Made by a program: the position numbers and the translations under genes
Notes under the pieces: model-generated
Told to the model about the DNA's origin: nothing
Seen by the model: only the letters and a program-made list of their open reading frames with translations
The model's database searches: none
Shown here: positions 31,470 through 44,785 of the stretch, piece by piece
Layout: each line of letters starts with the position of its first letter
How positions within the stretch are numbered: position 1 is the stretch's first letter
NCBI GenBank assembly: GCA_018268835.1
Contig: JAFDVU010000001.1
Coordinates: 1 to 64,000, forward strand
Origin: Acidobacteriota bacterium
GTDB taxonomy: Bacteria > Acidobacteriota > Terriglobia > Bryobacterales > Bryobacteraceae
DNA: 64,000 bases
Direction: 5' to 3'

Positions 31470-32267
31470 TCAGCGAGACGCCGGAAACAGGTACTCCAGC
31501 ACGCGGCCGAAGCGCGCGCCCCAGGCAGCTTCGTTGTGCGCGGCGCCTTCGAATTCCTCGTAGCGCAGGTGCGCGGGTTCGCGCCAGCCCTTGGCCAGAA
31601 ACGCCTCGCGCATCCGGCGCGCGTCATCGATGACTTTGCCCGGATTGCCGCCCTCCGCGGTGCCGGCGTCGAGCCAGATGCGGGGCCGCTCGGGACGCGT
31701 CCACGATTCCACAACCGGCAGGATGGAGTGCTCGTCCCACCACACCGAGGGCGAAAGCAGCGCCAGTTTGCCGAAGACCCGGGGATAGGCGAGCCCGGCC
31801 ATCAGGGCAGCCAGCGCGCCCAGCGACGAGCCGCCGACGCCGGCATCGCCCGCGCTCTTGCGCGTGCGGTATTCGTGGTCGATGAACGGTTTGATCTCGC
31901 GCGCCAGCATCTGCGCGTAGCGCGCCGCCTTGCCGCCCTTGCGCGTGCGGCGGTCGCGCGTGGGGGTGTACTCCGAAATGCGCCGCACGCCGGCATTGTA
32001 GATGCCGGCGATGAGCAGCGGTTCGACCGAGCCGCGGCGGATGGCGTCGTCGGCGGTGACGTCGGCGTGCCAATCGTTGCCGGCGAACGCGGTGGCGGGG
32101 TCGAACAGGTTCTGCCCGTCCTGCAGGTAGAGGACCGGATAACGCGCGTCCGATTCGCCGTACCCGGGTGGCAGGTAGACGATGAGATCGCGCGGCGTGG
32201 AAAGGAAGCGCGAAGGGAAACGTCGGTGCAGCCGGATACGGCCCTCATCTCTGGCGCGGAGGCTCAA
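31470..32267 (-). CDS. Esterase-like alpha/beta hydrolase
   Basis: A 265-residue protein of the esterase-D/enterochelin-esterase-like alpha/beta hydrolase group. The nucleophile elbow is GVGGSSLGAL and the C-terminal His is in EFEGAAHNEAAW; DLIVYLPPGYGESDARYPVLYLQDG is the typical first strand region. No signal peptide is evident. It is divergent, with 40 bases between starts, from a second esterase-like gene that heads the ligase operon, so the two hydrolases may share a promoter region and act on the same class of compound. Confidence 0.88.
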   Translation of the reverse strand: MSLRARDEGRIRLHRRFPSRFLSTPRDLIVYLPPGYGESDARYPVLYLQDGQNLFDPATAFAGNDWHADVTADDAIRRGSVEPLLIAGIYNAGVRRISEYTPTRDRRTRKGGKAARYAQMLAREIKPFIDHEYRTRKSAGDAGVGGSSLGALAALMAGLAYPRVFGKLALLSPSVWWDEHSILPVVESWTRPERPRIWLDAGTAEGGNPGKVIDDARRMREAFLAKGWREPAHLRYEEFEGAAHNEAAWGARFGRVLEYLFPASR

Positions 32268-32307: not shown

Positions 32308-33024
32308 ATGCGCCGCGATTACATCAAGTGGTACAGCCCCTCGCTGGGGCGTGACATGGAACTGCTCGCCTTCGGCCACGCCGGGTTCCCGGTGATGGTG
32401 TTTCCCACTTCGGGCGGACGGTTCTACGAATATGAGGACCGCGGCATGGTGGCGGCGCTCGCGCCCAAAATCGATCGCGGCGAACTGCAGGTGATCTGCG
32501 TGGATTCGGTGGACCAGGAATCCTGGTACAACCGCGGGATCCACCCCGCCGGCCGCCTCCACCGGCAGAACGCGCTCGACGCTTACCTCGCGCTCGAAGT
32601 CGTGCCCTTCGTGCAGCGCCGCACTACGTGGGACCGCATGGGCACCACCGGATGCAGTTTCGGCGGCTACCACGCCATCAACTTCGCGCTGCGCCATCCC
32701 GACATCGTGACCTACGCGGTGAGCATGTCGGGCGCGTTCGACATCCCCAAGCGTTTCCTGGACGGCTACTACGACAGCAACGCCTACTTTCACGGGCCTC
32801 TGGACTATTTGCCCGGGCTGAGCGACGCGTGGTACCTGGACCGCATGCGCGGTAACTACTATGTGCTGGCGGTGGGCAACGGCGACGCGCTGTTCGATCA
32901 AAACGTGAAGCTGGCGCACGCCTTCGGCATTCAACAAATCCCGCACCTGCTGGACGTGTGGGAAGGTTTCGGGCATGATTGGCCGTGGTGGCATCAGATG
33001 GCGCACAAGTTCTTCGTGAAATGA
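32308..33024 (+). CDS. Esterase-like alpha/beta hydrolase, first gene of the ligase operon
   Basis: A 238-residue protein; the ATG at 32308 is preferred over 32182, which lies within the divergent gene. It is an alpha/beta hydrolase of the putative-esterase family: KWYSPSLGRDMELLAFGHAG at the front, the nucleophile elbow GTTGCSFGGYHA, and GFGHDWPWW near the end with the likely catalytic His. The stop TGA overlaps an ATG (33021) that could start the next gene. It opens a six-gene run of amide-forming enzymes, where it could cleave or transfer an acyl or peptidyl ester; that is inference from context. Confidence 0.88.
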   Translation: MRRDYIKWYSPSLGRDMELLAFGHAGFPVMVFPTSGGRFYEYEDRGMVAALAPKIDRGELQVICVDSVDQESWYNRGIHPAGRLHRQNALDAYLALEVVPFVQRRTTWDRMGTTGCSFGGYHAINFALRHPDIVTYAVSMSGAFDIPKRFLDGYYDSNAYFHGPLDYLPGLSDAWYLDRMRGNYYVLAVGNGDALFDQNVKLAHAFGIQQIPHLLDVWEGFGHDWPWWHQMAHKFFVK

Positions 33025-33035
33025 GGAGCCAGAGT

Positions 33036-33974
33036 ATGGCAAGGATCGGCGTTCTCTACGGAATGGAAGAATCGTTTCCTCCCGCGCTGGTGGACCGGAT
33101 CAACGCGATGGGGGTCGCAGGCGTCCGCGCCGAACACCTGAAGGTGGGCGGCGTCCGCATGGCGGTGCCCAGCGGCTACGATGTGATCGTCGACCGGATC
33201 TCGCACGACATCCCCTTCTATCGCTCGTACCTGAAGAACGCCGCATTGTGCGGCGCCAAGATCATCAACAATCCGTTCTGGTGGAGCGCGGACGACAAGT
33301 TCTTCAATTACGCGCTGGCCGCGAAACTGGGGGTCGCGGTGCCGGCGACCGTCCTGCTGCCGCATAAACAGCATCCCCAGGGCACGACGGATCGCTCCAT
33401 GCGCAACCTGGAGTTTCCGCTGGATTGGGACGGCATCTTCCAGTACGTGGGATTCCCCGCGTTCCTCAAGCCGCACGATGGCGGCGGGTGGAGGAATGTA
33501 TCCAAGGTCGATTCGCCCGAGGAACTCTTCCGCGCCTACGACGAAAGTGGCGACCTGTGCATGACCCTGCAGGCCGCGGTGAAGTTCCAGGAATACTTCC
33601 GCTGCTACGTGGTCGCGCGCAAACACGTACACGTGATGCGCTACGACCCCGGCGCTCCGCATCACCTGCGCTACGTGCCCGGAAATCCGCCCGCGGCGCC
33701 CGCGCTGCAGGAGCGCATGGTGGCCGACGCCCTCAAGCTCTGCAACGCGCTCGGCTACGACCTCAACACCGTGGAGTTCGCGGTGGAAGACGGGGTGCCG
33801 TACGCAATCGATTTCATGAATCCGGCGCCGGACGCGGGGCTGGAATCGGTGGGCGAGGCCAACTTCCGCTGGGTGGTGGACGCGGTAGCGGAAATGGCGG
33901 TGGCGCGCGCGCTGGAACCCCCGGAGGCGCCCTGGATGCTCTGGCAGGCATTCCTGAGCGGAGGTGCCCGATGA
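33036..33974 (+). CDS. ATP-grasp ligase
   Basis: A 312-residue protein from ATG 33036, which has GAGGAG 8-10 bases upstream; ATG 33021, overlapping the previous stop, is possible too. It shows a RimK-like ATP-grasp fold: a pre-ATP domain (1-100), FLKPHDGGGWRNVS with the ATP-contacting Lys, QEYFRCYVVARK, and a metal-binding segment DLNTVEFAVEDGVPYAIDFMNP. Such enzymes activate a carboxylate as acyl phosphate and join it to an amine. The stop overlaps the next start as ATGA. The substrate is not predictable; the adjoining ligases suggest a shared peptide-like product. Confidence 0.88.
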   Translation: MARIGVLYGMEESFPPALVDRINAMGVAGVRAEHLKVGGVRMAVPSGYDVIVDRISHDIPFYRSYLKNAALCGAKIINNPFWWSADDKFFNYALAAKLGVAVPATVLLPHKQHPQGTTDRSMRNLEFPLDWDGIFQYVGFPAFLKPHDGGGWRNVSKVDSPEELFRAYDESGDLCMTLQAAVKFQEYFRCYVVARKHVHVMRYDPGAPHHLRYVPGNPPAAPALQERMVADALKLCNALGYDLNTVEFAVEDGVPYAIDFMNPAPDAGLESVGEANFRWVVDAVAEMAVARALEPPEAPWMLWQAFLSGGAR

Positions 33975-35104
33975 GCCGGCTTGAGCGCCCCAGTTTCAGC
34001 ATCGGGATCGAGGAGGAGTACCAGACCATCGATCCGGAAACGCGCGACCTGCGGTCTCACATTCAGGCGGAAATTCTGCAGAAGGGCAAGACGCTGCTCG
34101 CCGAGCGGGTCAAACCGGAGATGCACCAGTCGGTGGTCGAGATCGGCACCGGCGTGTGCCGCAATATTCAGGAGGCCAAGGAGGAGATCCGCGACATCCG
34201 GAGGCATATCGTCGAATTGACCCGCGCCAACGGATTGCGCCTCGCCGCCGGAGGCACGCATCCCTTCGCGCACTGGGCGCAGCAGGAGATCTACCCGGAC
34301 GACCGCTACCGCATCATCGTGGAGGATATGGCGATGGTGGCGCGCGCCAACCTGATCTTCGGGCTGCACGTGCACATCGGCGTGGAGGACCGCGAGACCG
34401 CGATCCACATCATGAACGGCGCGCGCTACTTTCTGCCGCACATCCTGGCGCTCTCCACCAACTCGCCGTTCTGGCAGGGGATGGACTCGGGGCTGCGCTC
34501 CTACCGCTGCAAGGTGTTCGACAAGTTTCCGCGCACCAACATTCCGGACCTGTACGCGAGCTGGAGCGAGTTCGAAAACTACATCGCCCTGCTGGTCCGG
34601 ACGAACTGCATCGACAACGCGAAGAAGATCTGGTGGGACATCCGCCCGCACCCGCACTTCCCGACGCTGGAATTCCGCATCTGCGACATGCCCATGCGGC
34701 TGGAGGAATCGATCGCCATCGCGGCGCTGTGCCAGGCGGTGATCGCCAAGCTGTACCAGTTGCACGAGCGCAACCTGAGCTTCCGCCACTACAGCCGCTC
34801 GCTGATCATGGAAAACAAGTGGCGCGCGGCGCGCTACGGGCTGGACGGCAAGCTGATCGATTTCGGCAAGCAGGAAGAAGTGCCGGTGCGGCGGTTGATC
34901 GGCGAGATTCTGGACTTCGTGAGCGACGTGGTCAACGAACTCGGCAGCGAGCAGGAGATCGGCTACATCCATCGCATGCTCGAAGAGGGCAGCGGCGCCG
35001 ACCGTCAGTTGCGCGTCTTCGCCGAGACGGGAGATTTGAAACAGGTGGTGGACTACATGATCGCCGAGACCGAGCGCGGGCTGTGGGCGGGGGCCGCGCG
35101 ATGA
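33971..35104 (+). CDS. Carboxylate-amine ligase, YbdK/GCS2 family
   Basis: A 377-residue enzyme of the glutamate-cysteine ligase type 2 fold. It starts with SFSIGIEEEYQTID (GIEEE at residues 12-16, an ATP/metal site) and has LRLAAGGTHPFAHW, IFGLHVHIGVED, ALSTNSPFWQGMDSG, and a C-terminal helical part. YbdK-like members link amino acids or similar amines to a carboxylate using ATP. The ATG overlaps the previous stop by 4 bases, and its own stop overlaps the following start in the same way. True glutathione synthesis is unlikely from the setting; a dedicated amide product is the better guess. Confidence 0.93.
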   Translation: MSRLERPSFSIGIEEEYQTIDPETRDLRSHIQAEILQKGKTLLAERVKPEMHQSVVEIGTGVCRNIQEAKEEIRDIRRHIVELTRANGLRLAAGGTHPFAHWAQQEIYPDDRYRIIVEDMAMVARANLIFGLHVHIGVEDRETAIHIMNGARYFLPHILALSTNSPFWQGMDSGLRSYRCKVFDKFPRTNIPDLYASWSEFENYIALLVRTNCIDNAKKIWWDIRPHPHFPTLEFRICDMPMRLEESIAIAALCQAVIAKLYQLHERNLSFRHYSRSLIMENKWRAARYGLDGKLIDFGKQEEVPVRRLIGEILDFVSDVVNELGSEQEIGYIHRMLEEGSGADRQLRVFAETGDLKQVVDYMIAETERGLWAGAAR

Positions 35105-36150
35105 CGGGCCGGGAGCAATTGCTCGCGCTCGCCTTCGATCCCGACCTCGCGCCCGGAGCGCGCAACGCCGTGGCGGCGTGCCTGCGCGTGCAACCGGAGG
35201 AGAAGGTCACGCTGATCACGGACCTGGCGTGCCGCGAGATCGCCGCCGCGCTGGCGCGGGAACTGGAGACGTTGGGCGCGCCGTGGCACGGGTTCGTGTT
35301 GGAAGATCTGGCGCCGCGCCCGCTGACGGACATGCCGCGCGCCGTACTCGACGATATGGAGACCAGCCAGGTGAGCATCTTCGCGGTGCGCGCGCAGGCC
35401 AGCGAACTGCGCACCCGGATGCAGATGACCGACGTGGTGAACCGGCGCCGGATGCGGCACGCCCACATGGTGAACATCGAGCACCGCATCATGCTGGAAG
35501 GGATGCGCGCCGATTACGCCGAGGTAGACCGCATCAGCACGCAGGTGTGGCGCATGGCCAGCGCGGCGCGGGAAATTCGCGCGACGAATCCCGCGGGCAC
35601 GGAGCTGGTGGCGACGTTTTCGCCAAAGTTGAAGTGGCTCAAGACCAGCGGCATCATCAGCCCCAACAAGTGGGGCAACCTGCCGGGCGGCGAGACCTTC
35701 ACGACGCCGGAGCGGGTGGACGGCACGTTCGTGATCGACGGCGTGGTGGGCGACTACCTCTGCGAAAAATACGGCGACCTAGGCGCCGAGCCGCTCACCA
35801 TCCGGGTGGAGGACAGCCGGCTCAAGGAGGCGCGTTCGGCCAACCGGCAACTGGAGCGTGAGTTCTGGGACTACTGCCACACCGACGAATTCAGCGATCG
35901 CGTGGGCGAGTTCGCGATCGGCACCAACATCGGAGTGCGCGACGTGATCGGCAATATTCTGCAGGACGAGAAAATTCCCGGGATCCACATCGCGTTCGGC
36001 AATCCGTACGGCGCCCACACCGGCGCCGACTGGTATTCGGCGACCCACATCGATGTCGTGGGCCGCAAGTTCGACATCTGGATTGACGGCCGCCGGATCA
36101 TGCGCGGCGGAGAATTCCTGCTTGATACCCTCCTTCCGGCGGAAGTTTAA
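35101..36150 (+). CDS. M29-type metallo-aminopeptidase
   Basis: A 349-residue protein of the thermophilic aminopeptidase (M29) family. The metal ligands can be followed in order: Glu in GGETFTTPER (about 198), Glu in GEFAIGTN (about 270), His in HIAFGNPYG (about 296), and His/Asp in THIDVVG (about 317/319). It removes N-terminal residues from peptides with two metal ions. In this operon it could trim a precursor or recycle the ligated product. It overlaps both neighbours, the downstream one by 29 bases. Confidence 0.9.
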   Translation: MTGREQLLALAFDPDLAPGARNAVAACLRVQPEEKVTLITDLACREIAAALARELETLGAPWHGFVLEDLAPRPLTDMPRAVLDDMETSQVSIFAVRAQASELRTRMQMTDVVNRRRMRHAHMVNIEHRIMLEGMRADYAEVDRISTQVWRMASAAREIRATNPAGTELVATFSPKLKWLKTSGIISPNKWGNLPGGETFTTPERVDGTFVIDGVVGDYLCEKYGDLGAEPLTIRVEDSRLKEARSANRQLEREFWDYCHTDEFSDRVGEFAIGTNIGVRDVIGNILQDEKIPGIHIAFGNPYGAHTGADWYSATHIDVVGRKFDIWIDGRRIMRGGEFLLDTLLPAEV

Positions 36151-37279
36151 CCGCGAGTGGACTCGGGCGAAGTACGCGCGCTTCGTCGAGTTGATCGCGG
36201 AGCGCTCCGGCGTGGCGCCGCAATTCCGCCACAGCGAGACGCCGTGCTTCCTGCCCGCGGCCCTGGTGGAGAAGATGGCGCGCTACGGGCGCGAGATGGT
36301 GGAGCAGTTGCTCGCCGACGACGTCTACCGGCGCGACTCGCGGGCGGCGATCCCGGAGAGGTATCGCGTACCCGGCGAGGCGCCGGTGCCGCTCTTCGTG
36401 CAGGCCGACTTCGGACTCGACCCCGCGGGCGAACCCAGGCTGGTGGAGATTCAGGGCTTCCCCTCGCTGTACGCGTATCAGCCGGTGATGGCCGCGTGCT
36501 ACCGCGACGCGTTCGATCTGGACCCGGCGCTGGACACGCTGCCGGCGGACCTCACGCCGGAGCGATACCGCGCGATGCTGCGGGAGGCGATCGTGGGCGG
36601 GCACGACCCGGAGCACGTGATCCTGCTCGAAGTGGATCCGGCGAATCAGAAGACGCGCTGCGATTTCCTGGTCACGGAGAAACTCTTCGGCGTGCGCGCG
36701 GTGGACGTGCGCGAACTGCGCCGGCGCGGCAACCGGTTGTTCCACGGCGAGACACCGGTGAAGCGGATCTACAATCGCGCGATCGTCGATGAACTGGAGC
36801 GGCGCGGCATCGAGGTGCCCTTCGACTGGCGCGACGACCTGGACGTGGAGTGGGCCGGGCATCCGAACTGGTATTTCCGGCTGAGCAAGTTCTCGCTGCC
36901 CTACCTGAGTCACCCGGCGGTGCCGCGCTCGGTATTCCTGGATCGCGCCGGGGAGATCGGCGATCCGTCGCGGTACGTACTGAAGCCGCTATGGAGCTTC
37001 GCCGGACTGGGCGTGATCGTGGGGCCGGACCGGGAGCAGATCGCGGCAGTCCCGGTGGAGCGGCGGCGCGATTATCTGTTGCAGGAGCGGGTCGATTTCA
37101 CTCCGGTGATCGAGACGCCGGTGGGGAACGCCAAGATCGAGGTGCGGATCATGTACCTGTGGCTGGACGAACTGCGCGCGGTGAACACGATCGTGCGCAT
37201 GGGACGCGGCGCCCAGATGGGCGTGGATCACAACAAGGGCCTGGAGTGGGTCGGCGGCAGCGCGGGGTTCCTGGTATGA
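36122..37279 (+). CDS. ATP-grasp-like protein
   Basis: A 385-residue protein. I choose the TTG at 36122 because GGCGGAGA lies 9 bases upstream and the only ATG in frame (36053) is deep inside the previous gene. The C-terminal half looks like an ATP-grasp core: YVLKPLWSFAGLGVIVGP with Lys, DYLLQERVDFTP, KIEVRIMYLW and a Gly-rich end GRGAQMGVDHNKGLEWVGG. The N-terminal half has ADFGLDPAGEPRLVEIQGFPSLYAYQ, resembling circularly permuted or glutathionylspermidine-synthase-like enzymes. Its assignment is less certain than that of the other ligases. It overlaps the following start as ATGA. Confidence 0.78.
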   Translation: MIPSFRRKFNREWTRAKYARFVELIAERSGVAPQFRHSETPCFLPAALVEKMARYGREMVEQLLADDVYRRDSRAAIPERYRVPGEAPVPLFVQADFGLDPAGEPRLVEIQGFPSLYAYQPVMAACYRDAFDLDPALDTLPADLTPERYRAMLREAIVGGHDPEHVILLEVDPANQKTRCDFLVTEKLFGVRAVDVRELRRRGNRLFHGETPVKRIYNRAIVDELERRGIEVPFDWRDDLDVEWAGHPNWYFRLSKFSLPYLSHPAVPRSVFLDRAGEIGDPSRYVLKPLWSFAGLGVIVGPDREQIAAVPVERRRDYLLQERVDFTPVIETPVGNAKIEVRIMYLWLDELRAVNTIVRMGRGAQMGVDHNKGLEWVGGSAGFLV

Positions 37280-38475
37280 CGATTCTGTGCCTGGCCGGCT
37301 ATGAGAAAGGCCACGATTTTCTGCGCGAGGCCAAACGGCAGGGCGCGGCCGTGGTGCTGTTGACGTCCCAGAGCCTGCAGCACACGGCGCGCTGGCCGCT
37401 GGAGAGCGTCGACGAGATCTTTTACATGCCGGACGCGAACCGCGAGTGGGACCGCGCGCAGACGTTGAACGCGGTGAGCTACCTGGCGCGGACGCGGGTG
37501 TTCGACCGTATCGTGCCGCTGGACGATTTCGACGTGGAGGTGGCCGCGATGCTGCGCGAACACCTGCGCGTCCCCGGCATGGGCGAGACCACGGCGCGCT
37601 ACTTCCGGGACAAGCTCGCGATGCGCCTACGCGCCGCCGAGGCAGGAATCGACGTGCCGGATTTCGTACACGTGCTGAATCACGCGCGCGTGGCGGAATT
37701 CATGGAGCGGGTGCCGGGTCCGTGGGTCCTGAAGCCGCGCTCCATGGCGGGCGCAATCGGGATCAAGAAGGTACACGCGGCGGACGAGTTGTGGCGCATC
37801 GTCGAAGCGCTGGGCGACGAGCAATCGCGCTACGTGCTGGAGCGATTCGTGGCAGGCGGTATCTTTCACGTGGACACGATCGTCTACGAGCGCGAGGTGC
37901 GGTTTGCCATCGCCAGCGGGTACGGGAAGCCGCCGCTCGAAGTGGCGCACGGCGGCGGTATCTTCACGACGAGCGTGCTGGAGCGTGAGTCGGAGACGGC
38001 GCGCCGTCTGGTGGAGGAGAACGCGCGCGTGCTGGCCGCGCTGGGCCTGGTGCGCGGCGCATCGCACAGCGAGTACATCATCGGCCGCGACGATGGTCGC
38101 GTCTACTTCCTGGAGACCTCGGCGCGCGTGGGCGGCGCGCACATCGCCGATCTGGTGGAAGCGGCCACGGGCGTCAACCTGTGGGCGGAGTGGGCCAAGG
38201 TGGAGGTGGCCGGAGGAAAGGCGCGGTACACGACGCCGGTGCCGCGCCGCGATTACGCGGGACTGGTGGTGTCGCTGGCGCGGCAGGAGCGTCCCGATAC
38301 CTCGCTGTTCAACGATCCCGAAGTGGTATGGCGCATGGACAAGGCCAACCACGTGGGGCTGATCGTGCGCTCGCCGGACCCGCTGCGGGTGCGCGACCTG
38401 CTCGCGGACTACACCGCGCGCATCGCCCGCGACTACCACGCCAGCGCCCCGCCGCAGGACCGGCCGGGCCACTAG
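37276..38475 (+). CDS. ATP-grasp ligase, biotin-carboxylase/CarB-like fold
   Basis: A 399-residue protein. A Rossmann-like pre-ATP domain (TILCLAGYEKGHDFLREAKR, LTSQ) is followed by an ATP-grasp core: KLAMRLRAAEAGIDVPDF, WVLKPRSMAGAIGIKKV, YVLERFVAGGIFHVDTIVYE, and the metal/ATP segment VYFLETSARVGGAHIADLVEAATG. The fold is that of enzymes that join a carboxylate to an amino acid, such as the l-amino-acid ligases. It is the last gene of the run; a 75-base gap with CTTAG repeats follows before the potassium operon. Confidence 0.92.
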   Translation: MTILCLAGYEKGHDFLREAKRQGAAVVLLTSQSLQHTARWPLESVDEIFYMPDANREWDRAQTLNAVSYLARTRVFDRIVPLDDFDVEVAAMLREHLRVPGMGETTARYFRDKLAMRLRAAEAGIDVPDFVHVLNHARVAEFMERVPGPWVLKPRSMAGAIGIKKVHAADELWRIVEALGDEQSRYVLERFVAGGIFHVDTIVYEREVRFAIASGYGKPPLEVAHGGGIFTTSVLERESETARRLVEENARVLAALGLVRGASHSEYIIGRDDGRVYFLETSARVGGAHIADLVEAATGVNLWAEWAKVEVAGGKARYTTPVPRRDYAGLVVSLARQERPDTSLFNDPEVVWRMDKANHVGLIVRSPDPLRVRDLLADYTARIARDYHASAPPQDRPGH

Positions 38476-38550: not shown

Positions 38551-38997
38551 ATGAGTCGATACGATGCCGAGCGGGCGATGAGCGAGATACCGGGCGCGCA
38601 AGAAGAGGGCGGCACCCGGCGGTTCCCGGTGGTGGTGCCGCACACCGAAATGGCGCTCACCCGGATCGCGCTGCGCGAAGCCGTGCGGCTTGCGCGTGGG
38701 CTGGAAGTGCGGGTGACGGTGCTGGCGGTACGGATTGTGCCGTTCCCGGACCCCCTGGATCCGACGCGCGGCTTGCCGGGGTTACAGGACCTGATGGCCC
38801 TGGCCGAGGCGGCTGAAGCCCCGGTTACGATCCACGTGGTGTACGCGCGCGATTGGAAAGTTGCGTGCGAACAGATGCTGGAGCGGGATTCGCTGGTGGT
38901 GATGGCGCTGCGCCGCGGATGGTTCCGCACCCGCGAGGAACGCCTCGCGGGATGGCTGACGCACTCCGGGCGCAGGGTCGCTCTCGTGGTTGCCTGA
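38551..38997 (+). CDS. Small universal-stress-like protein heading the kdp operon
   Basis: A 148-residue protein with alternating strands and helices (FPVVVPHTEMALTRIALREA, VRVTVLAVRIVPFP, VTIHVVYARDWK, SLVVMALRRGWF, RRVALVVA), consistent with a universal stress protein-type alpha/beta fold. The ATP-binding GxxG motif of UspA is not evident. It has no signal peptide. It lies directly before the small membrane ORF and kdpF, so it probably belongs to the potassium operon and may help sense or regulate turgor or K+; that is inference. Confidence 0.75.
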   Translation: MSRYDAERAMSEIPGAQEEGGTRRFPVVVPHTEMALTRIALREAVRLARGLEVRVTVLAVRIVPFPDPLDPTRGLPGLQDLMALAEAAEAPVTIHVVYARDWKVACEQMLERDSLVVMALRRGWFRTREERLAGWLTHSGRRVALVVA

Positions 38998-39010
38998 TCG
39001 GGAGGTGGCG

Positions 39011-39094
39011 ATGTTGGATGCACTCTACATCACGATCGCCGTCGCCTTCTTCGCCGTGAGCTGGGCTTACGTGCGAGGCTGCGACCGGCTGTAA
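39011..39094 (+). CDS. 27-residue membrane microprotein upstream of kdpF
   Basis: ATG at 39011 follows GGAGGTG at a good distance and opens 27 codons to TAA. The product is LDALYITIAVAFFAVSWAY followed by VRGCDRL, one membrane helix with a charged tail. It lies between the USP-like gene and kdpF. It resembles KdpF in size but not in sequence. Conserved spacing and a strong ribosome-binding site make it a credible gene. Confidence 0.7.
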   Translation: MLDALYITIAVAFFAVSWAYVRGCDRL

Positions 39095-39108
39095 ACAAGG
39101 AGGCACAA

Positions 39109-39192
39109 ATGGAGTACGCAATTGCGGGAGTGATCTCCGCCGCGCTGGCAGTGTATCTGGTCTACGCCCTGCTGCGGCCGGAACGCTTTTGA
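39109..39192 (+). CDS. kdpF: KdpF, small subunit of the potassium-transporting ATPase
   Basis: A 27-residue single-helix protein ([19 protein letters not shown] then LLRPERF), with AGGAGG ahead of the ATG. Charged ending and length match KdpF, which stabilises the KdpABC complex in the inner membrane. It lies 7 bases before kdpA. Confidence 0.9.
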
Positions 39193-39199
39193 GGGGGAT

Positions 39200-40969
39200 A
39201 TGTATTCCAACGGATTCTTTCTGGTTACCGTTTTCTTTCTCGCGGTGCTGGCCGCAACGAAGCCGATGGGGGCGTACATGGCCCAGGTCTTCGAAGGCCG
39301 CAGAACGTTTCTGCATCCGCTGATCCGCCCGCTGGAGCGGCTGGTCTACCGGCTCTGCGGAGTGGAGGAAGAGCGCGAACAGATCTGGACGCAGTACGCC
39401 GGCGCCATGCTGATGTTCAGCATCGTGCCGCTTCTGCTGACGTACCTGATCGAACGATTGCAGGGCTGGCTGCCTTTCAACCCGCAGGGATTCGGCTCGA
39501 AGCTGATGCCGCCGGACCTGGCCTTCAATACGGCGGCGAGCTTCACCACCAACACCAACTGGCAAGCCTACGTGCCGGAGACCACGGTCAGCTATTTCAC
39601 CAACATGGTGGGGCTGGCAACCCACAATTTCTTCTCGGCGGCGGTGGGAATCGCGATCGCGGTTGCGCTGGTGCGCGGATTCGCGCGCCATTCCGCGCAG
39701 CGCATCGGCAACTTCTGGGTGGACGTGACGCGGGCGACGCTGTACGTGCTGCTGCCGCTTTCGGTCGTCTTCGCGCTGGTGCTGGTCTCGCAGGGCGTGA
39801 TCCAGAACTTCTCGCCGTACACGGTGGTAAAGACCGTCGAGGGCGGAACCCAGACCATCGCGCAGGGGCCGGTGGCCTCGCAGGAAGCCATCAAGATGCT
39901 GGGCACCAACGGCGGCGGCTTCTTCAATGCGAACTCGGCGCATCCCTTCGAAAATCCGACGCCGCTCACGAATTTCCTGCAAACATTCTCCATTTTTCTG
40001 ATTCCCGCGGGCCTCACATACACATTCGGCCGCATGGTGAAGGACACGCGGCAGGGATGGGCGCTGTTCGGTGCGATGAGCGTGCTGTTCCTCGCCGGGG
40101 TCGGGGTGACGATGTGGGCGGAGCAGAGCGGCAATCCGGTGCTGGCGGATCTCGGGGTTCGCCAGGATGCGACCGCGACGCAACCAGGCGGCAACATGGA
40201 GGGCAAGGAGGTGCGGTTCGGCATCCCGGCATCGGCGCTGTTCGCGGTGGTGACGACGGATGCGAGCTGCGGCGCGGTGAACTCCATGCACGACAGTTTC
40301 ACGCCGTTGGGCGGGCTGGTGCCGCTGGTGAACATCCAACTGGGCGAGGTTGTGTTCGGCGGCGTGGGCGCGGGGCTTTACGGGATGTTGATGTTCGCCA
40401 TCCTGGCGGTGTTCATCGCGGGACTCATGGTGGGGCGCACGCCGGAGTACCTGGGCAAGAAGATCGAGCAGAAGGAAGTGAAGATGGTGATGCTGGCCGC
40501 GCTGGTGCTGGCCGGCGCGATCCTGATCCCGGCAGCGGCGAGTTCGGTGGCACAGTTTGCGAAGAACTCGTACCTGAACCCGCCGGGAGTTGCCGCCGCC
40601 AATACCAACAACGGCGGGCCGCACGGGCTCTCCGAAATGCTCTACGCATATACGAGCGCCGCGGGGAACAACGGCAGCGCGTTTGCGGGCATCAACGCCA
40701 ACACGCCCTGGTACAACCTGACGATCGGAATGTCGATGCTGATCGGGCGGTTCCTGATGATCATCCCTCTGTTGGCCGTCGCGGGGAGCCTGGCGGCGAA
40801 GAAGATGATTCCGGTCTCGGCGGGGACGCTGCCCACGCACAACGGCCTCTTCGTCGCGCTGCTGGTCGGGGTGGTAGTGATCGTGGGGGCGCTCACGTAC
40901 TTTCCGGCGCTGGCACTGGGGCCGATCGTGGAGCACCTGTTGATGTACCAGAGGGTTCTGTGGAGCTAG
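39200..40969 (+). CDS. kdpA: KdpA, potassium-binding and channel subunit
   Basis: A 589-residue inner-membrane protein of the SKT superfamily. Filter-related segments include [43 protein letters not shown] and [17 protein letters not shown]. The length is normal for the family (about 560-600). It takes up K+ with very high affinity and passes it to KdpB. GAGGGGG precedes the ATG. Confidence 0.97.
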
Positions 40970-40972
40970 ATC

Positions 40973-43078
40973 ATGACCGTGGAAACACCTGTCGCTGAAA
41001 TACCGGAAGTATCGATTTTGCCGTCGAAGCGGCGGCGCTCGCGGCCGCTGTTCGATCCGCCGATCGTGCGCCGCGCCATCGGCGATTCGTTCCGCAAACT
41101 CAACCCGGCGCTGATGGCGAAGAACCCGGTGATGTTCGTGGTGGAGATCGGGGCCGCGCTGACCACGTTTCTGACGCTGCGCGACGTGTTCACCGGCGCC
41201 CACGGGCTGGGCTTCGGATTCCAGATTACATTGTGGCTGTGGTTCACGGTGCTGTTCGCCAACTTCGCCGAGGCCATGGCGGAGGGACGCGGCAAGGCGC
41301 AGGCGGACACCCTGCGCCGCACCAAGACCGAGACGATGGCGAAGAAAGCGCGCGCCGGAGGCGAGTACGAGGTTGTCCCGGCGGCGCAATTACGGCGCGA
41401 CGACGTGGTAGTGTGCGAGCCGGGCGACATCGTCCCGGGGGACGGCGAAGTGATCGAGGGCATCGCCAGTGTGGACGAGAGCGCCATCACGGGGGAGAGC
41501 GCGCCGGTGATCCGCGAATCGGGCGGCGACCGCAGCGCGGTGACGGGCGGCACGAAAGTGCTCAGCGACCTGATCCGCGTGCGCATCACATCCAACCCGG
41601 GGGAAACATTCCTGGACAGGATGATCGCGCTGGTGGAAGGTGCCGAGCGCCAGAAGACGCCGAACGAAATCGCGCTCAACATCGTGATCGCCGGGCTGAC
41701 GCTCGTGTTCCTGCTGGCGGTAGTCACGCTGATGCCGTTCGCGTCGTACAGCGTGGCGGCGTCGGGCAGCGGCAGCGTACCGTCGGTGGCGGTACTGGTG
41801 TCGCTGCTGGTGTGCCTGATCCCGACCACGATCGGGGGACTGCTCTCAGCCATCGGGATCGCCGGCATGGATCGCGTGATGCAGCACAACGTCCTGGCAA
41901 TGAGCGGCAAGGCGGTGGAGGCGGCGGGCGACGTCAACACCTTGCTCCTGGACAAGACCGGCACCATCACGCTGGGCAACCGGCAGGCGACGGAGTTCGT
42001 GCCGGTGGATGGCGTAAGCGAAGCGCACCTGGCCGACGCGGCGCAGCTCTCGAGCCTGGCCGATGAAACGCCCGAGGGCCGGTCCATCGTGGTGCTGGCC
42101 AAGGAGCGGTACGGACTGCGCGGGCGCGAGGTGGCCCACGACGCGCACTTCATCGAGTTCACCGCGCAGACGCGCATGAGCGGCGTGGACATGGAGGGGC
42201 GGCGGGTGCGCAAGGGCGCGGTGGAGAGCATCGTGCAATTCGTACGGTCCAACGGCGGGACCGTGCCCGAGGAACTGACCGGGACCGCCGACCGGATCGC
42301 GCGCGCGGGCGGCACTCCACTGGCGGTGGCGGACGGCGGGCACGCGCTGGGCGTGATCCATCTGAAGGACGTGGTGAAGGGCGGAATGCGCGAACGGTTC
42401 GCGCAACTGCGCGAGATCGGCATCCGCACCGTGATGATCACGGGCGACAATCCGCTGACCGCGGCGGCGATCGCCGCCGAAGCCGGCGTGGACGATTTTC
42501 TGGCGCAGGCGACTCCGAAGGACAAGATGGACCTGATCAAGCGCGAACAGGCGGGCGGACGGCTGGTGGCGATGACCGGCGACGGCACTAACGACGCACC
42601 GGCGCTGGCGCAGGCCGATGTCGGAGTGGCCATGAATACCGGCACGATGGCGGCCAAGGAAGCCGGCAACATGGTAGACCTCGACAGCAATCCGACCAAG
42701 CTGATTGAGATCGTGGCCATCGGCAAGCAGTTGCTGATGACGCGCGGCGCGCTGACGACGTTTTCCATCGCCAACGACGTGGCCAAGTATTTCGCGATCC
42801 TGCCGGCGATGTTCACGGTAACCTATCCGGCGATCGCGCGGCTCAATGTGATGGGGCTGAGGAATCCGCAGAGCGCGATTCTGGCGGCGGTGATTTTCAA
42901 CGCGCTGATCATCATCGCGCTGGTGCCGTTGGCGCTGCGCGGCATCAAGTACCGGCCGCTGCCGGCTGGCGCTCTGTTGCGCCGGAACCTGCTGGTGTAC
43001 GGACTGGGCGGAGTGATCGCGCCGTTTCCAGGAATCTGGCTGATCGACCGGTTGCTGGGAATCCTCGGGTGGGCATAA
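40973..43078 (+). CDS. kdpB: KdpB, P-type ATPase subunit
   Basis: A 701-residue P-type ATPase. TGES is in [15 protein letters not shown], the phosphorylated Asp327 in [13 protein letters not shown], and the nucleotide and hinge motifs are [18 protein letters not shown] and [17 protein letters not shown]. The membrane helix with [20 protein letters not shown] is typical. It drives K+ import through KdpA. It starts 3 bases after the kdpA stop and ends 10 bases before kdpC. Confidence 0.97.
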
Positions 43079-43088
43079 GGAGCAAGCT

Positions 43089-43661
43089 ATGATGCGACAG
43101 TTTCTTCCAGCGCTGCGATTGACCCTGGTGATGACGGTGTTGACCGGCCTGGTGTATCCCGCCCTGATCACGGGCATGGCGCGAATGCTGTTCCCACGGC
43201 AGGCGGCGGGCAGCCTGATCGAGCGCGACGGACACGTGGTGGCGAGCGAACTGATCGGTCAGAAGTTCACGCGGCCCGAGTATTTTCACGGACGGCCCTC
43301 GGCGGCGGGCGACGGGTACGACGCGGCCAACTCGGGGGGATCGAACCTTGGTCCGACCAGCCGGAAACTCGCCGACCGGGTGCGCGCCGACGTGGCGGCG
43401 TTCCGCAAGGAGAACCCCGCGGTGAAGGGTCCGCTGCCCGCGGACCTGGTGACGGCGTCGGCGAGCGGTCTGGATCCAGACATCAGCCCGGAGTCGGCGT
43501 ACCTGCAGGTGGACCGCGTGGCTGCGGCGCGCCATGTCGCAGCGCAGCGCGTACGCCAGATCGTGGATGCCCACGTGGAAGGACGGCAGCTTGGATTTCT
43601 CGGCGAACCGCGGGTCAACGTGGTGAGACTGAATCTGGCCCTGGACGCGGGGCTGCGCTAG
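43089..43661 (+). CDS. kdpC: KdpC subunit of the potassium-transporting ATPase
   Basis: A 190-residue protein with one N-terminal membrane helix and the family segments [27 protein letters not shown] and [16 protein letters not shown] good AAGGAG precedes the ATG pair at 43089. It completes the KdpFABC complex. Confidence 0.95.
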
Positions 43662-43696
43662 CCGTATGGTTTGGAGGTAGGAACGGACGATCGCAG

Positions 43697-44785
43697 ATGA
43701 CAGGCCGCGCGGACTCGAGGCCGGACCCCGAAGCGTTGCTGCGCCAGGTGATGGCGCAGGAGCGGCAGGAGGTGCGCGAGCGTCTGAAGATCTTTCTGGG
43801 GTACGCGTCCGGCGTGGGCAAGACGGTGCGTATGCTGGATGAAGCACGGCGGCGGAAAGAGCGCGGGCAGGACGTGGTGATCGGCGCCGTGCAGCCGCGG
43901 GCGGGCCCGGAGGCCGCGGCGCTGCTCGCGAACCTCGAGGTGATCCCATTCCAGATCGTGGCCGGCGCCGAGGTGCTCGATCTCGATCGCATCCTGGCGC
44001 GCAAACCGGGCGTGTGCTTCATCGACGGCCTGGCCTACGACAATCCCCCGGGCAGCCGCCACGCCTCGCGATGGGAGGACGTGAAGGAACTGGTGGAGCG
44101 CGGGATTACCGTGGTGACGTCGCTCAACATCCAGCACATCGAAGAGGAGCGGGAGAAGGCCGAGCGCATCACCGGCAAGCGTGTCACCCAGACGGTGCCC
44201 AAGAACTTCGTCGCGCAGGCGGATGAAATCGTAGTGGTGGACGTGCCCGGCGACATGCTGCTGGCGCGCACCGGCGAGCACGCCGATCCGGAGCGCGCGC
44301 GGCGGCTCGGCGAACTCCGCGAGATGACCCTGCTGCTGGCGGCGGAGGTGGTGGACCGGCAACTCGACGATGCGCTGGAGGCGCAGGGCGCGGACCCGAT
44401 GTGGAGCGCGCACGAGCGCATCCTGGTGTGCCTGACACCGCGGGCCAACGCGTCGCGCATGCTGGCCAGCGGCAAGCGCAACGCCGAGCGCTTCCGCGGT
44501 GACCTGCTGGTGGCGTACGTGGAGCAACCGGGGCTCGGGGTGGAGGAGCAGACCCGCCTTGAGGCCACGCTGCGCGAGGCGCGTGAAATGGGCGGCGCGG
44601 TTCACGTGCTGGAGGGCGATGAACCGATCTCCACGATTCTGAGGTTCGCGCGCGCCAACCGCATCACGCAGATCTTCGTGGGGCACAGCATGCAGGAGAG
44701 TTTCTGGAAGCGATGGATGGGCGGACCGCTGGACCGGCTGATCCGCGGCGCGGAGGGGATGGATGTCCGTGTCTTCCCTCACTGA
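43697..44785 (+). CDS. KdpD N-terminal sensor protein, no kinase domain (first copy)
   Basis: A 362-residue protein holding only the KdpD N-terminal domain and the following universal-stress-like domain. The Walker A is GYASGVGKT at residues 35-43. The Walker B-like segment reads FIDGLAYDNPPGSRH where KdpD usually has DELAHTN, so the acidic residue after Asp is lost. The USP domain is about 250-362. The four membrane helices, GAF and histidine-kinase parts of KdpD (about 890 residues) are absent, and no remnant follows, so this is a genuine short form. The gene overlaps the next by 23 bases. Confidence 0.9.
   Translation: MTGRADSRPDPEALLRQVMAQERQEVRERLKIFLGYASGVGKTVRMLDEARRRKERGQDVVIGAVQPRAGPEAAALLANLEVIPFQIVAGAEVLDLDRILARKPGVCFIDGLAYDNPPGSRHASRWEDVKELVERGITVVTSLNIQHIEEEREKAERITGKRVTQTVPKNFVAQADEIVVVDVPGDMLLARTGEHADPERARRLGELREMTLLLAAEVVDRQLDDALEAQGADPMWSAHERILVCLTPRANASRMLASGKRNAERFRGDLLVAYVEQPGLGVEEQTRLEATLREAREMGGAVHVLEGDEPISTILRFARANRITQIFVGHSMQESFWKRWMGGPLDRLIRGAEGMDVRVFPH

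Follow-up and report, generated by a model that had tools for sequence, protein, structure and literature searches.

Recurrent clusters of amide ligases and hydrolases in Acidobacteriota and Bacteroidota support an uncharacterised pathway, possibly to a small intracellular oligoamide

Introduction

Enzymes of the GCS2 and ATP-grasp families activate a carboxylate as an acyl phosphate, which is then joined to an amine. The amidoligase survey of Iyer et al. 2009 reportedly described genomic neighbourhoods in which ATP-grasp and glutamine-synthetase-like (GCS2) ligases are found together with peptidases, and predicted novel peptides as their products. Within these families, RimK and LysX modify proteins, and the YbdK-type enzymes are not known to have a firmly established natural substrate.

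Among the ATP-grasp enzymes of the glutathione synthetase fold, YgiC and YjfC are cited in PMC12568646 as peptide-spermidine ligases. The fungal enzyme Cp1B belongs to an NRPS-independent route to the small pseudopeptide E-64, where it works alongside an oxygenase and an ANL-type amide synthetase, and it carries a quartet formed by Arg139, Asp141, Glu163 and Asn165 (PMC12568646).

The locus described here lies in an Acidobacteriota genome of 7.46 Mb, to which Acidobacteriota of the Bryobacteraceae/Solibacter type come closest among named relatives, within a stretch of 64,000 nucleotides that was analysed as a whole (the window). It shares with the neighbourhoods reported in the Iyer et al. 2009 survey the clustering of amide ligases with peptidases and the recurrence across genomes. 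A literature search, made mostly without subscription papers, returned no description of this gene set.

Results

Layout of the locus

The ORF calls in the window give six co-directional ORFs (A to F) on the forward strand, from 32308 to 38475 (Table 1). A and B are separated by an 11-base gap, ATGA overlaps are found at the B/C, C/D and E/F junctions, and D and E overlap by 29 bases when E starts at the TTG codon at 36122, a start that is backed by relatives, whose MIxxxR N-terminus falls in the same alignment column. The six-gene run with four overlapping junctions out of five, described in an earlier sequence-only reading of this DNA, is thus confirmed. The gene list of that reading did not include the divergent esterase R, which is a recurrent partner too. 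Directly downstream of F, on the same strand (38551-44785), we recognized by eye a small universal-stress-like ORF, followed by KdpA, KdpB, KdpC and the N-terminal part of KdpD.

Table 1. Genes of the locus, with predicted assignments and the evidence behind them.
Gene	Predicted assignment	Position	Strand	Evidence
R	PF00756 esterase-family hydrolase, divergent partner	31470..32267	-	PF00756 1.6e-29
A	Alpha/beta hydrolase, PF00756 family	32308..33024	+	PF00756 1.3e-8
B	ATP-grasp ligase, RimK/LysX/Ddl fold, system marker	33036..33974	+	AF2 model + Foldseek
C	GCS2/YbdK-type carboxylate-amine ligase	33971..35104	+	PF04107 4e-69
D	M29-type metallopeptidase	35101..36150	+	PF02073 1.1e-10, over cut-off
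E	Circularly permuted ATP-grasp, glutathione/glutathionylspermidine synthetase fold	36122..37279	+	AF2 model, fold comparison
F	ATP-grasp ligase, similar to L-amino acid ligases	37276..38475	+	matches 4wd3, 3vot

The four ligases

B and E are without a Pfam match, and E is without an NCBIfam match as well. The AF2 model of B (pLDDT 88) is placed by Foldseek with Ddl, LysX and RimK, and its residues Lys145, Asp259 and Asn262 are conserved at 97% or more in 102 sequences. With this modelled fold, a conserved ATP-binding lysine and acidic metal ligands, B is classified as an ATP-grasp enzyme. F matches the L-amino-acid-ligase-like ATP-grasp structures 4wd3 (1e-15) and 3vot (3e-12), and its Lys153, Glu266 and Glu280 are conserved in at least 97% of sequences. 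In four genomes (G457, G478, G574 and G654), an otherwise full-length F contains one in-frame stop, so that these copies may be pseudogenes or reflect assembly errors.

C, the only GCS2 gene of the genome, matches the PF04107 (GCS2) model over its full length (233.5 bits against a cut-off of 21), TIGR02050 with 324 bits (cut-off 176.4) and the NCBIfam model PRK13515 with 555 bits (cut-off 371). It aligns over nearly its full length with the YbdK structure 1r8g (E=1.5e-59), but differs from YbdK in belonging to the PRK13515 subgroup and in being tied to B, E and F.

A sequence-profile comparison of E with the PDB gave no credible relative (YgiC appears at E=1), and its relatives were reached only through fold comparison. 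The AF2 model (pLDDT 91) shows a whole-chain fold similarity with Z about 25 over about 345 residues, the values ranging from about 22 to 25.5 for YgiC/YjfC, human glutathione synthetase, glutathionylspermidine synthetase and Cp1B. More specifically, E shares the whole-chain fold of YgiC/YjfC and of the E. coli glutathionylspermidine synthetase (Z about 24-25) at only 14-15% identity, and has the glutathione-synthetase-fold ATP-grasp in common with Cp1B (Z 21.9). Judged by its model, E is a circularly permuted ATP-grasp enzyme of the glutathione synthetase fold, which is a better description than the "ATP-grasp-like" of the sequence-only reading. Asp96, Glu109, Gln111, Lys256 and Lys288 are conserved in at least 97% of sequences. 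When the Arg-Asp-Glu-Asn quartet of Cp1B is mapped onto E by motif (and not by superposition), Asp96 and Glu109 are kept, the Arg position is variable and Gln111 takes the place of Asn. E differs from YgiC/YjfC and glutathionylspermidine synthetase in its partner genes and, on this mapping, would also differ in a quartet Arg that is not conserved and in Gln for Asn, so that its chemistry may differ too.

The hydrolases

A carries a GxSxG motif with Ser117 and an HDW motif with His223, both conserved in at least 97% of sequences, and matches S-formylglutathione hydrolase weakly. R, whose family is present in 28 of the fetched loci, has Ser148 and His244 conserved. The Bacteroidota R at L185:3294-4409 (+) has an N-terminal extension with the motif ITGNFNSWNP, which by eye resembles a glycogen-binding (CBM48-like) module, the Pfam assignment being esterase only. 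The metal ligands of the M29 family (two Glu, two His and one Asp) are present in D as Glu198, Glu270, His296, His316 and Asp318, conserved at 97% or above, and D matches AmpS, with which Glu198, Glu270 and His296 are aligned. As far as the sequence can tell, D is an M29-type peptidase with predicted aminopeptidase activity; a dioxygenase role, raised by a match to NicX, was dropped because D retains these metal ligands. Since the likely catalytic residues are conserved in at least 97% of sequences, the enzymes of these families look active.

Gene order in other genomes

The order A-B-C-D-E recurs throughout Acidobacteriota, in many families: 31 fetched loci have exactly this arrangement, 10 more have it with R and 7 with both R and F, and further loci show it with gaps, these counts being non-independent, given that for some loci the same genome was reached twice. 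Relatives from the same family keep A-B-C-D-E, with F either downstream of E or beside R, and in the nearest relatives the divergent R stays adjacent to A. In Bacteroidota, three related genomes show the order R, M17 aminopeptidase, F, A, B, C, G, E (G being the protein described below), and in a fourth, A B C G E comes first and F, M17 and R follow on the opposite strand. The sequence-only reading had proposed that a recurring order with shared co-occurring genes would speak for a pathway, and genes unlinked in all relatives against it; the former is what we find, strongly and in two phyla.

Some neighbours recur within single clades. In just three Bacteroidota genomes, which are related to each other (L185, L188 and L189), a cyanophycin synthetase gene (PF18921 1.5e-45; L185:14187-16814, minus strand) is found a short way downstream of E, and glycogen synthase/branching enzyme genes upstream of R. 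Because the cyanophycin synthetase is near the cluster in these three close relatives only, we did not adopt a general role in storage-polymer metabolism. An amino-acid permease (PF13520) follows E in one Acidobacteriota group (L053, L054, L078, L083-L085, L089, L090, L095, L105, L126 and L127), and in Acidobacteriaceae loci (L114, L115, L118, L119, L121 and others) E is followed by a short conserved gene, which encodes about 127 aa and looks PilZ-like by eye, and by a gene for a LuxR-type regulator. These three genes were rejected as general partners, since they recur within clades only. Plasmid carriage is likewise unsupported, as plasmid records gave no match for B or E, and for D only distant M29 peptidases.

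Across lineages, the neighbourhoods contain no recurring gene for a transporter or exporter, for an oxidase, dehydrogenase or aminotransferase, or for a redox partner, small carrier or target protein. Regarding graspetides and other RiPPs, the window leaves no intergenic room for a precursor and no short gene is conserved across lineages; regarding NRPS assembly, carrier and condensation domains are absent from the six proteins. The earlier description of the operon as devoid of precursor peptide, carrier protein and transporter fits these results.

Two alternative functions can be weighed against these neighbourhoods. The genes could make a glutathione-like low-molecular-weight thiol, with C forming gamma-glutamylcysteine, E adding the last residue and A and R acting like S-formylglutathione hydrolase. 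This would suit a GCS-like C, the glutathione synthetase fold of E, the weak match of A and the absence of a GSH-S_ATP gene from the genome. Nevertheless, a tripeptide thiol would have no need of B, F or the amide hydrolase, redox partners do not recur, and the BshA of this genome scores far above its cut-off. In view of this strong BshA gene, the genome probably makes bacillithiol already, which weakens the thiol pathway. On the whole we consider it quite improbable. The other alternative is peptide tagging, in which the RimK-like B and the other ligases would add amino acids to a protein, and D or G, together with A and R, would remove them. RimK and LysX, the near fold relatives of B, are the argument in its favour; on the other hand, no small carrier or target protein recurs, and four different ligases accompanied by esterase-fold hydrolases are better suited to a small molecule, so that tagging appears very improbable.

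Distribution and co-occurrence

B was found in 130/396 Acidobacteriota genomes at a threshold of 1e-40 (in 109 of these the match reaches about 1e-90 or better) and in 86/247 Bacteroidota-side genomes (sampled from the phylum to which an Ignavibacteria member belongs). B is present in 45/48 of the Acidobacteriota genomes that carry E (p=2e-25), and among F-bearing genomes in 52/52 and 74/75 (126/127 in total; p=1e-30 and 8e-52); the genomes counted are related and the p-values thus overstate the significance, although the same pattern is seen again in both phyla and inside a single family. F is usually unlinked and mostly lies alone in its genome, and therefore its co-occurrence with B is not a by-product of linkage. 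The surroundings of unlinked F yielded no general further partner; an M17 peptidase in a single Bacteroidota genome was all we found. In a family of 43 genomes, all 20 that carry E also carry F and B, and E, F and B are jointly missing from 15; the distance between E and F is 7.5-700 kb in the five genomes of this family that were checked, and in two genomes B, E and F are 0.2-0.9 Mb apart. Some genomes carry B without C, E or F, and so not all parts are obligatory.

These data bear on the simplest alternative, namely that unrelated housekeeping genes merely stayed neighbours. The order could have persisted by descent within Acidobacteriota, with F often elsewhere, but the same partners are found in a second phylum, the unlinked F and E track B, and D and G (see below) replace each other. 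We regard this explanation as having hardly any probability; chance synteny as such is rejected, given the recurrence in Bacteroidota, the co-occurrence of F with B and the retention of E, F and B together within a family.

Exchange of D for G and of E for X

Two slots of the cluster are occupied by alternative proteins. Among the 79 clusters that have B, C and either E or X, the position between C and E holds D without G in 58, G without D in 13, both in none and neither in 8. G has the class-I glutamine-amidotransferase (GATase) fold, and its Cys-His-Glu triad is conserved. In four Acidobacteriota loci (L154, L157, L161 and L163) E is replaced by X, a CP_ATPgrasp_2 protein in which all residues of the R-D-E-N quartet are present. 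Each swap plausibly exchanges like chemistry, one amide hydrolase for another and one permuted ATP-grasp for another, and together they are the best functional hint in the data. In a single cluster lacking both D and G, a creatininase-family gene (PF02633 3e-52; L149:11186-11983, minus strand) lies beside E and may be a third stand-in hydrolase.

The pairing of a GCS2 ligase with G or an aminopeptidase in the same slot would also suit a scheme in which gamma-glutamylation serves for protection or as a carrier (on the model of putrescine (Puu) or aniline (Atd) use and of butirosin synthesis), with C adding gamma-glutamate to an amine, other enzymes acting on it and D or G removing it. PuuD and AtdA2, which are gamma-glutamyl hydrolases of the GATase fold, count in favour of this possibility, and the Puu and Atd clusters have a ligase and a GATase-fold hydrolase in common with the present one. 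However, the cluster described here differs from them in having no oxidising enzymes (neither oxidase, dehydrogenase nor aminotransferase recurs) and in carrying three extra ATP-grasp ligases, which simple amine use would not need, and G matches PF00117 and not the C26 model. A protecting role, which has some of its reasoning in common with the oligoamide reading, is, in our assessment, unlikely.

Discussion

The results support a genuine, widely conserved and uncharacterised ligase-hydrolase pathway. The suggestion of the sequence-only reading that the operon forms a single amide-ligase pathway is now well supported by the recurring order and by the unlinked F and E that track B; its further proposals, that the hydrolases take the product apart and that the product is built from free amino acids, describe what the enzymes could do, and the hydrolases may instead mature the product. 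Given that these genes are found again, side by side or dispersed, in about one third of the sampled genomes of two phyla, they very probably make a small intracellular molecule together. That this molecule would be a small cytosolic oligoamide is suggested by the make-up of the cluster, in which four ligases stand beside an amide hydrolase and two hydrolases of the esterase fold, and from which genes for a carrier, a precursor or an exporter are absent. We consider it fairly probable that the genes encode one cytosolic pathway, independent of ribosome, tRNA and carrier, in which a small oligoamide is made by the four ATP-dependent ligases, with a dedicated amide hydrolase and the hydrolases A and R.

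The observations comprise the gene set and its arrangement, the folds, the conservation of catalytic residues, the joint occurrence of the genes across genomes and both swaps (D/G and E/X). From these we infer the chemistry and order of the steps, the product and the cytosolic location as follows. C would form the first amide, of gamma-glutamyl type, which B and E (or X in place of E) would extend through acyl-phosphate intermediates. F may add a lineage-dependent extra unit or supply a dipeptide, D (M29) or G (GATase-like) would trim or recycle the product amide, and A and R may act on an ester or amide portion, by releasing, transferring or degrading it.

While amidoligase clusters as such are known, the present set of genes, how widely it occurs, the joint occurrence of unlinked F and both swaps appear, as far as could be checked, to be undescribed. 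More tentatively, since we place it a little below an even chance, this could be a previously unrecognised and widespread pathway of Acidobacteriota and Bacteroidota to a new intracellular oligoamide (serving as cofactor, as buffer or for storage), built by ligases of several folds and relying on one of two amide hydrolases that can stand in for each other.

Two of the six proteins (B and E) fall outside every Pfam family, the D/G and E/X swaps hint at the chemistry needed in each slot, and the gene set is small enough for reconstitution in a laboratory strain. The marker ligase B is present in about one third of the sampled genomes of two large environmental phyla, and the patchy distribution, the co-retained unlinked genes and the fact that no export gene recurs suggest a compound that serves a general role inside the cell, rather than a rare antibiotic.
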